Shown: positions 8,181-64,000 of the stretch, in pieces
Layout of the letters: each line of letters begins with the position of its first letter
Numbering within the stretch: position 1 is the stretch's first letter
Source: Branchiostoma floridae
Taxonomy: Eukaryota; Chordata; Leptocardii; Amphioxiformes; Branchiostomatidae
Length of the DNA: 64,000 nucleotides
Assembly: GCF_000003815.2 (NCBI RefSeq)
Contig: NC_049987.1
Coordinates: forward strand, 22,558,516-22,622,515
Reading direction: 5' to 3'
The notes under the pieces: generated by a model
Told to the model about the DNA's origin: nothing
What the model saw: the letters and a program-made list of their open reading frames with translations, nothing else
Database searches by the model: none
Made by a program: the position numbers and the translations under genes

Positions 8181-8425
8181 TCAGCAGCCCTTCAGCAGCA
8201 TGTCCGTCAGGATGACCTCCATGTCGATGGCGCCGATCAGAGGTCGGAAGAACAGTTCGGTGACGATCTTGGGTTTGATACTGCGTAGCGCGGGGAGGCC
8301 CAGTAGAATGCGAGCGAAGCGCAGGGGCTGGAGCGGGTATCTGGCAGTGGTGTACTCGTTCAGGGACTGGTGGGCACTGTTTTGTAGGATCTCCACTTGT
8401 CTCCCATCTACCAGGCCTGGAACAT
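8181..8425 (-). CDS. NR0B: NR0B last coding exon (C-terminal LBD helices)
   Basis: It starts after ...CATGCAG at 8426 and completes the split codon to Asp, reading DVPGL. It encodes 81 residues ending IVTELFFRPLIG-AIDMEVILTDMLLKGC and a TGA stop at 8183-8181. The LFFRPLIG motif and the short D-M-L-L tail match the conserved C-terminus of SHP and DAX1, the region needed for repression. Its 5' half is tandemly copied three times upstream in the intron. Confidence 0.92.
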
Positions 8426-63300: not shown

Positions 63301-64000
63301 TGTTATCATGTTACATTGCATCGCAAAATTAACCTCACTCTAGCCTACATTGTTTCAAAAGCATTTATATTTTAGCAAAAAATGCCGTCCAAAACATCAT
63401 TTTTGCCTCGTTTTGTTGTCGATCCCAGTTTGACCTTGTCCCAAACTGAGCTGTTTCGCACTGGGCGCTGGCCGATTTATGACTTAAATTATCTCCAGCG
63501 CTGAGCTACTTCCTTTGTACAAATAACGGGGGGATTAATTTTATGTTGTTTGTTCATAGCGACCCCGCACAGGCTTCGTGGTGAGGATAATGATTCTACC
63601 GATCCACGGAGCCTGGTAGAGGCTATGTCTTTTCAGCTGATGAGAACAGAGACGTTGACATGGACCGTGTTCTTGTACTGGAGTGGGAAGGACTTTAACT
63701 TGCAGTAAGTAACTGATACGCCAAAAAATAGTGTCTCAAGCAACTGGATATGGTTTTGGAAACTGTCAGATGTTTCAACTACTATCCAGTAGTTTTCGTC
63801 AGTGACACTGAAAACTACTAGATAGTAGTTGAAACATCTGACCGTTATCAAAACCATATCCAGTCGCTTGAGTAACTATTTCTTGGTGTATCTTATTGCC
63901 TGGATGTGTAACCTACATCGACATAAGTAACTGATGATGTATTTAATACTATATTTTTTCCAGTTGATGAGAACGGGAACATTGACGTGGACCGCGTCCT
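54262..64000 (+). CDS. ATE1: ATE1: arginyl-tRNA--protein transferase (3' end beyond window)
   Basis: Visible exons: 54262-54352, 54972-55035, 55645-55707, 56075-56160, 56593-56856, 57233-57330, 57986-58072, 58475-58603, 58986-59018, 59167-59348, 61558-61657, 62354-62471, 63964-64000. All junctions keep frame and give about 450 residues of a protein usually about 500-530 aa long. Seen: N-terminal CGYC (18-21) and CCPQY (66-70), the four-Cys pattern typical of ATE1 and thought to bind an Fe-S cluster; a variable linker with KPPCKKAK; a C-terminal GNAT-like domain with [54 protein letters not shown] and [17 protein letters not shown]. Known: ATE1 transfers Arg from Arg-tRNA to N-terminal Asp, Glu and oxidised Cys, marking proteins for the Arg/N-degron pathway. 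The start is the only ATG giving the short N-terminus before YRCGYC. Partial copies of exons 11, 12 and 13 sit in the introns. Confidence 0.95.
54972..55035 (+). CDS. ATE1: ATE1 exon 2
   Basis: Encodes [20 protein letters not shown] and RR, nearly the same as human ATE1 ([21 protein letters not shown]); donor AGAAG|GTCTGC. Confidence 0.95.
55645..55707 (+). CDS. ATE1: ATE1 exon 3
   Basis: Encodes [20 protein letters not shown]; acceptor CTTCCAG, donor ATCAA|GTGAGT. Supplies the CC pair. Confidence 0.95.
56075..56160 (+). CDS. ATE1: ATE1 exon 4
   Basis: Encodes [20 protein letters not shown] and AKLLVNPPT, matching [20 protein letters not shown] of human ATE1. Confidence 0.94.
56593..56856 (+). 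CDS. ATE1: ATE1 exon 5 (variable linker)
   Basis: 264 nt, phase 1 to 1; acceptor CATCAG, donor GCCCAG|GTATCA. The low-complexity acidic and Ser/Gln/Val-rich linker fits the poorly conserved region between ATE1 domains. Frame and splice sites support it more than homology does. Confidence 0.8.
57125..57190 (-). repeat. tRNA-derived SINE fragment in ATE1 intron 5
   Basis: On the minus strand: GTGCAGTGGTTATTAGCAAC then AAGAAGTTCGAATCCCGGC, i.e. A-box-like and B-box-like segments. Truncated, so not a functional tRNA. Confidence 0.5.
57233..57330 (+). CDS. ATE1: ATE1 exon 6
   Basis: Encodes [20 protein letters not shown] and a basic tail; matches [20 protein letters not shown] of human ATE1. Donor GCAGAG|GTGAGG. 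Confidence 0.94.
57986..58072 (+). CDS. ATE1: ATE1 exon 7
   Basis: 29 codons in phase 0, [20 protein letters not shown] then KDEAFSRLE; matches the SLEDLIFESLPENASHKLE segment. Donor TTGGAG|GTCAGT. Confidence 0.87.
58475..58603 (+). CDS. ATE1: ATE1 exon 8
   Basis: 43 codons, [20 protein letters not shown] then [20 protein letters not shown]; matches VRLVRSSPPS...ESYQVYKRYQMVIHK. This is the segment alternatively spliced as 129-bp exon 7a/7b in mammals; only one version is seen here. Confidence 0.94.
58986..59018 (+). CDS. ATE1: ATE1 exon 9 (33 nt)
   Basis: Encodes [11 protein letters not shown], matching FTRFLCSSPL; acceptor TTTCAG, donor TTCAG|GTAAGA. Confidence 0.92.
59167..59348 (+). CDS. 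ATE1: ATE1 exon 10 (core of transferase domain)
   Basis: Encodes [20 protein letters not shown] then [20 protein letters not shown], the most conserved part of ATE1. Acceptor TTGTAG, donor CTCAG|GTAAAC. Confidence 0.97.
59375..59485. mobile_element. Foldback MITE in ATE1 intron 10
   Basis: TAGCCTGGTATCCAGCCATA and the inverse ACAGCTGGATACTGAGGCTA; same family as 20033-20134. Confidence 0.75.
59505..59745. mobile_element. MITE, GCCAGC/GCTGGC family, in ATE1 intron 10
   Basis: GTTGTAGCCAGCCAGAAATC to GGATGGGTGCTGGCTAC, inverted relative to 10968-11345. Confidence 0.75.
59747..61258. mobile_element. 1.5-kb element in ATE1 intron 10 with 10-bp minisatellite
   Basis: Inverted ends TTTTTTGGTACACTGACAAC / GTTGTCAGTGTACCAAAAAA. 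Subterminal GAAAGTGCGAAAAGGAACGAAGTATGC is inverted near the right end, where it is amplified as the 61000-61230 repeat. No transposase recognised. Confidence 0.75.
60965..61230 (+). repeat. CGTTCCTTTT minisatellite
   Basis: About 20 head-to-tail copies of a 10-bp unit (CGTTCCTTTT/CGCTCCTTTT), broken by several CGCACTTTCGGTACTTTCCTT inserts. It produces long Phe/Ser- or Lys/Glu-rich frames on both strands that are not genes. Confidence 0.95.
61558..61657 (+). CDS. ATE1: ATE1 exon 11
   Basis: Encodes [11 protein letters not shown]...[19 protein letters not shown]; donor TATAAG|GTAAGG. The last ~40 bp including the donor is repeated immediately downstream. Confidence 0.96.
61658..61702 (+). 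repeat. Tandem copy of ATE1 exon 11 end and its donor
   Basis: GGCTTCTACATCCACACCTG... and GATGAAGTATAAGGTA recur right after the true donor with two differences. Confidence 0.92.
62060..62165 (+). pseudogene. Decayed, rearranged copy of ATE1 exon 12
   Basis: TTTACTCCTGGGCCCCAATTG...AAGCTGGACACC (about 62070-62127) matches the middle of exon 12, and GTTGCTAGGGTAACTACGACCTGTC (about 62138-62162) matches its acceptor and start, but in swapped order. Confidence 0.85.
62354..62471 (+). CDS. ATE1: ATE1 exon 12
   Basis: Encodes [20 protein letters not shown] then [19 protein letters not shown]; acceptor TTGCCAG, donor GAAAG|GTACGT. Decayed pieces lie about 300 bp upstream. Confidence 0.95.
62614..62755. 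mobile_element. Foldback with about 47-bp arms in ATE1 intron 12
   Basis: TCCAGAGATGTTCGGTACCA...AATCTTCTGA is inverted at 62708-62755. Confidence 0.8.
62853..63626. mobile_element. DNA element with terminal and subterminal inverted repeats, TA flanks
   Basis: AGCCTCTACCAGGCT.CGTGGATCGGT at both ends (one mismatch in 27). A second inverted pair, TCCTCACCACGAAG.CTGTGCGGG, lies about 100 bp inside on the left and about 30 bp inside on the right. It is inserted in the acceptor tract of the exon 13 copy at 63637. Confidence 0.85.
63637..63705 (+). pseudogene. Extra copy of ATE1 exon 13 start
   Basis: Acceptor TTTTCAG then [15 protein letters not shown] in phase with exon 12, then EWEGL and TAA at 63696-63698. 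A GTAAGT donor follows at 63705. Compare true exon start [13 protein letters not shown] at 63964. Confidence 0.75.
63734..63873. mobile_element. Foldback with about 63-bp arms between exon 13 copies
   Basis: CTCAAGCAACTGGATATGGT... is inverted as AAACCATATCCAGTCGCTTGAG. A solo half is at about 19750-19830. Confidence 0.85.
63964..64000 (+). CDS. ATE1: ATE1 exon 13 (cut by window end)
   Basis: Acceptor TTTTCCAG, then [13 protein letters not shown] in phase with exon 12. A second, similar exon start lies at 63637; this one is taken as the true exon because the other soon meets a stop. Confidence 0.75.
   Translation, partial: MMRTGTLTWTAS

Follow-up and report, generated by a model that had tools for sequence, protein, structure and literature searches.

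Probable mirage-type tandem duplications at exon-intron boundaries of three amphioxus genes

In amphioxus, tandem duplications that include splice sites have been described under the name of mirages, and the cases named in the published passages are Adh3, the globins BflGb6 and BflGb9, and PGBD5. The units of the globin mirages are reported at 150 to 160 and 157 bp, and RT-PCR is described there as suggesting that splicing is undisturbed (PMC3087553). In lancelet PGBD5, splice sites are covered by repeats of 60 and 108 bp, which re-examined Sanger data and new Illumina data are reported to confirm (PMC3902484). For VCBP3, exons copied in full or in part, a number of them with canonical splice sites, are described from the introns beside the matching exon, at a locus whose density of tandem repeats is given as in line with the genome (PMC2632668). 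Tandemly duplicated segments that bear AG/GT have also been considered as a source of new introns, in the Rogers model as cited in PMC3087553 and for potato RdRp (PMC4974935).

The window, a 64,000-nt stretch of Branchiostoma floridae DNA, contains three genes in which partial copies adjoin exon-intron boundaries (Table 1). Two are on the minus strand: an NR0B-like gene, whose protein matches Pfam Hormone_recep and PDB structures that include COUP-TF, NR0B2, NR0B1 and RXR, and a WD40 gene, identified by domain match, which we take to be PAAF1-like and whose exons upstream of exon a are unplaced. The third, on the plus strand, is ATE1 (E = 2.6e-119 against the PDB chain "Isoform ATE1-2"). The placement of exons relies on protein matches, GT-AG signals and phase rather than on transcripts, and the donor of ATE1 exon 7 is uncertain. 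A candidate last exon of PAAF1, exon h (41404-41514), was dropped, the real last exon being that given in Table 1; its copies (4 found, all with AG; 6 compared) are excluded from all counts, except where exon h is named.

Table 1. Placed exons, copied boundaries and other tandem arrays (positions in the window)
Feature	Position	Strand	Remarks
NR0B-like exon 1, from ATG at 27994	27268..27994	-	Translation, PDB/Pfam match
NR0B exon 1 in-frame 36-bp repeat, ~4 copies	27435-27584	-	Peptide about VQFNTEPTGGDR; part of ligand-binding domain
NR0B intron clusters (4)	15275-16125, 16662-17161, 19427-19758, 19961-20489		Median units 143-192 bp
NR0B-like exon 2	8181..8425	-	Translation and PDB/Pfam match; C-terminal part of ligand-binding domain, to stop
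NR0B exon 2 acceptor (exon begins at 8425)	copies 8588, 8753, 8912	-	All AG
NR0B exon 2 upstream copies (3)	8426..8989	-	Unit ~165 bp; acceptor and first 80-90 exon bases
PAAF1-like exon b	46651..46749	-	Protein match, GT-AG, phase
PAAF1 exon b donor 46651, copies downstream	46140..46650	-	GT after 46524, 46360, 46217; 3' end of exon b included
PAAF1-like exon c	45308..45458	-	Protein match, GT-AG, phase
PAAF1 exon c acceptor 45458, upstream copies	45459..45965	-	145-bp unit, then 70-bp unit; AG before 45603, 45808, 45878, 45955 (last spotted by eye)
Array in last PAAF1 intron	41496..42580		
PAAF1-like last coding exon	35401..35552	-	Stop codon 35403-35401
Array at PAAF1 3' end	33858..35412	-	~189/375-bp units; edge at stop codon; without splice site
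ATE1 exon 11	61558..61657	+	Protein match, GT-AG, phase
ATE1 exon 11 donor 61657, 43-bp copy of exon 3' end	61662..61704	+	GT after 61700
ATE1 exon 12	62354..62471	+	Protein match, GT-AG, phase
ATE1 exon 12 acceptor 62354, upstream copy	62056..62160	+	Exon 12 interior, then acceptor (AG, first exon base 62148)
ATE1 exon 12 acceptor region, 32-bp copy	62289..62322	+	AG lost (site 62322)
ATE1 exon 13 start	63964..64000	+	Continues beyond window end
ATE1 exon 13 acceptor 63964 and exon start, copy (acceptor 63637)	62800..63700	+	Outer limits by eye; split by terminal-inverted-repeat element

Partial copies adjoin 6 of the 41 exon-intron boundaries, and at each of these six sites the tandem unit spans the boundary itself. 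The sequence-only reading of this DNA had claimed eight tandem partial copies; those at NR0B exon 2, at two PAAF1 exons and at ATE1 exons 11 to 13 are all present, and what it counted at the 3' end of PAAF1 is an array that lacks a splice site, so that six boundary cases and this array stand, but not eight cases. Ungapped pairs in the 3'-end array extend to 35386 and a gapped match to 35412. In a two-sided census, the clusters at NR0B exon 2 and at PAAF1 exons b and c reach from the exon into the neighboring intron only; the copy search, aimed mainly at that side, carries no weight on this point. The donor of PAAF1 exon c has a short copy, detected only with a margin of 3 and a score threshold of 30 or less, that adjoins a palindromic insertion. 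This near-perfect palindromic (MITE-like) stretch, at 45129-45297, starts about 10 bp into the intron, with the short donor copy beyond it.

The copy of the ATE1 exon 13 acceptor is interrupted by a 768-bp element (62856-63623) that stands directly before the duplicated acceptor. This element is flanked by TA, contains nested inverted repeats and has terminal inverted repeats of 37 nt (86% complementary). When the flanks of this element are joined, their alignment score to the real exon 13 boundary is 74, versus 40 and 55 for the single flanks, which suggests that the element was inserted after the duplication. The ATE1 introns also hold a 10-bp-unit array (TTCCTTTTCG) with higher units of 33/43 bp before exon 11 (60969-61232), an inverted repeat between exons 12 and 13 (62601-62768; 50-nt arms, 84% complementary, 68 nt apart), and, past the exon 13 copy but before exon 13 itself, a palindrome (63715-63892; 83-nt arms, 89% complementary, 12-nt loop).

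Tandem duplication is not confined to these boundaries. After automatic masking of simple repeats, and masking by hand of three further simple-repeat stretches, there are 171 direct repeat pairs with scores of at least 36 within 800 bp, but only 17 that are inverted, and five shuffles yield none, indicating that the repeats did not arise by chance; at a score threshold of 30, the shuffles average 0.4 pairs. The direct pairs form 24 clusters, approximately 1 per 2.7 kb, with 6 at splice boundaries, 1 coding and in frame, and 17 outside the exons placed in the three named genes. The 36-bp repeat of NR0B exon 1 is a coding tandem repeat within a nuclear receptor.

When boundaries were shifted circularly round the window, the 4 to 7 of 41 covered did not measurably exceed expectation (3.8 to 5.6; P = 0.35 to 0.66), the range of 4 to 7 reflecting the choice of threshold and margin. 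Counting exon h gives 4 to 8 of 41 (P = 0.13 to 0.51 across settings). The last PAAF1 acceptor was set at 35555, 3 bases off, which leaves the count unchanged, as no ungapped pair passes 35386. A gapped-alignment test, which by its design missed exon 11, gave 6 of 41 boundaries, one of them that of exon h, versus 15.2% of 3,086 positions. Boundaries are not duplicated measurably more than other DNA, at a sample size (n = 41) that could miss a modest excess. Exon enrichment was rejected because the circular-shift test shows no measurable excess at boundaries, and the assertion of the sequence-only reading that the number of cases far exceeds the usual does not hold when the rest of the window is taken as the standard.

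Unit lengths seem to crowd near 130 to 190 bp, an observation that is only suggestive; the interval was picked after looking. By hand assignment, 12 of 27 units (from 24 clusters) fall at 127 to 192 bp (scan P = 0.0014 under a log-uniform null); when ambiguous arrays are given the longer unit, 8 of 27 do so, and the densest interval of equal width holds 9 (P = 0.06). Automatic assignment puts 10 of 36 stretches at 127 to 192 bp and has its densest interval, with 14, at 289 to 425 bp instead, the latter being a recount of the list in which both halves of some pairs are counted. Over the whole window, the smallest shift is 120 to 200 bp, near nucleosome size, for 3,901 of 8,478 duplicated bases (46%). 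Lengths of 130 to 190 bp are similar to those of nucleosomes and of Okazaki fragments of nucleosome size, and an origin of the unit length at this scale is speculation. Mirages might then be no more than the conspicuous part of a small tandem duplication process that acts throughout the window, and perhaps the genome, with its unit length set near 130 to 190 bp, with lagging-strand flap errors as its source and boundaries as one tolerated place; this broader reading is rather unlikely.

The AG or GT is kept in 12 of the 13 copies compared (11 from the copy search, plus those at 61700 and 62322), and the copy at 45955, added by eye, also has AG. In an ungapped comparison over 40 bases, several copies depart from the real site at no fewer than a quarter of the positions. 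Retention of AG/GT despite this divergence could be a hint of selection on the copies, which are, however, related to one another and were found by a search that favors similar ones; such selection was assessed by eye and from the codon positions of the differences. All 11 read-through alternatives (9 copy acceptors and 2 donor cases) stop early: from eight of the nine copy acceptors an in-frame stop is reached before the real exon, from the ninth (45603) a stop occurs 26 bases into the real exon, which is entered out of frame, and past the two authentic donors toward their copies, stops follow after 2 and 13 codons. Judged by these translations, the copies would give non-productive splice choices, if any, within the scope of simple read-through as opposed to cassettes with cryptic donors. 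Protein-diversifying splice choices were rejected for simple read-through, since all 11 alternatives stop; the earlier proposal that seven sites keep an acceptor or donor and so may offer new splice choices is not supported as regards choices of a useful kind.

Of 13 differences between exons and their nearest copies, 9 occupy third codon positions (4 of 6 in NR0B and 5 of 7 in PAAF1 exon c, where the codon count omits 5 differences beyond the unit end). This bias is about what would be expected if the real exon alone were constrained and the copy free, each having taken about half of the changes, and coding use of the copies would be compatible with it too. In the two nearest NR0B copies, sequence that stems from the exon is not better preserved than sequence that stems from the intron: the exon part has 4 and 2 mismatches in 80 bases, and each intron part has none in 64 aligned bases but 12 gap positions.

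The copies are very probably mirages of the amphioxus type, that is, minisatellite-like tandem duplications that chance to take in the border of an exon. Small tandem duplications, from tens to a few hundred base pairs, would arise through a general process at many places, whether coding or noncoding. Where an acceptor has been duplicated, use of the last one, nearest to the exon, would restore the old mRNA, as would use of the first donor where a donor has been duplicated, and in both cases the surplus copies would become intron. Because splicing turns the surplus into intron, duplications at boundaries would be tolerated and decay slowly, while those internal to coding sequence would mostly be removed unless in frame. 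The exon phases agree with the exon-proximal sites, and the proteins match ATE1, WD40 and the nuclear receptor ligand-binding domain, the frame being intact with the surplus copies intronic. The copies, their distribution, the splice dinucleotides they keep and the stops in frame are direct observations; we infer use of the exon-proximal sites, near neutrality of the copies and tolerance of duplication at boundaries. A local process copying short segments had been suggested from the letters of the sequence; tandem copying of tens to a few hundred base pairs agrees with our results, but its supposed focus on exons does not, the process acting window-wide.

Were exon boundaries specifically targeted, for example through copying linked to splicing or reverse transcription, the occurrence of copies at six boundaries in three genes would be accounted for; yet boundaries were not enriched in the circular-shift test, and unspliced intron is part of the unit at 6 of 6 boundaries, though with just 4 bases at ATE1 exon 11. 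As the units contain unspliced intron sequence, spliced mRNA was not their source, and such targeting is barely conceivable. The copies could also be an assembly artifact in which two divergent haplotypes were joined, as the sequence-only reading had allowed. According to the parts of the literature that deal with mirages, one mirage haplotype was misassembled in the draft genome (PMC3087553), and the number of PGBD5 repeats differs between two genome versions, but the same account backs these repeats by re-sequencing (PMC3902484). Within the window, several arrays hold at least three copies with graded divergence: the exon and intron parts at NR0B have 0 to 4 mismatches to two near copies and 9 to 14 to the far copy, gaps apart. 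The arrays have many different unit lengths, the sole run of N (38154-38363) is not near any array with a copied boundary, and the exon 13 copy carries its own 768-bp element. Merged haplotypes would be expected to leave two near-allelic copies, as a rule separated by a gap or breakpoint, which is not what these arrays present, although at ATE1 exon 11 just two copies are in view and exon 13 is cut by the window end. The graded copies, the position of the N run and the transposon within one copy disfavor merged haplotypes, which we consider very unlikely.

Selection might instead keep the copies for a role as decoy or poison splice sites, through which nonsense-mediated decay would tune expression. 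The retained AG/GT and the early stops would suit this function, as would the long pyrimidine tracts that precede the NR0B copy acceptors. But equal rates at boundaries and elsewhere need no selection, the ATE1 copy at 62322 has lost its AG, the exon 13 copy has a transposon directly before its acceptor, and published mirage genes appear, in the account given of them, to be normally spliced (PMC3087553). Maintenance of the copies as decoys is highly improbable.

With the copies read as chance mirages, a known lancelet oddity gains six boundaries from three genes. Within the window, boundaries are duplicated no more often than the background, which shifts attention away from splicing and toward the process of mutation in general. 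For annotators, repeated splice sites of the mirage kind can be non-productive.

As in the published mirages, the units are part exon and part intron, copies of acceptors lie upstream and copies of donors downstream, and many have AG or GT. Units range from 43 to about 165 bp here and from 10 to 160 bp in the mirages as published, of which those of 150 to 160 and 157 bp fit the interval of 130 to 190 bp, whereas those of 60, 108 and 10 to 72 bp do not. The present cases differ in their hosts, NR0B-, PAAF1- and ATE1-like genes that are not named in the passages on mirages, and in being seen against equally dense duplications away from exons. VCBP3 likewise has exon copies in introns but is described as a gene with strong haplotype variation (PMC2632668). 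In the intron-gain model, the duplicated segments likewise carry splice sites, whereas here no gained intron is seen and the copies sit in existing introns. The boundaries described here are new examples, in three genes, of the mirage kind already described.
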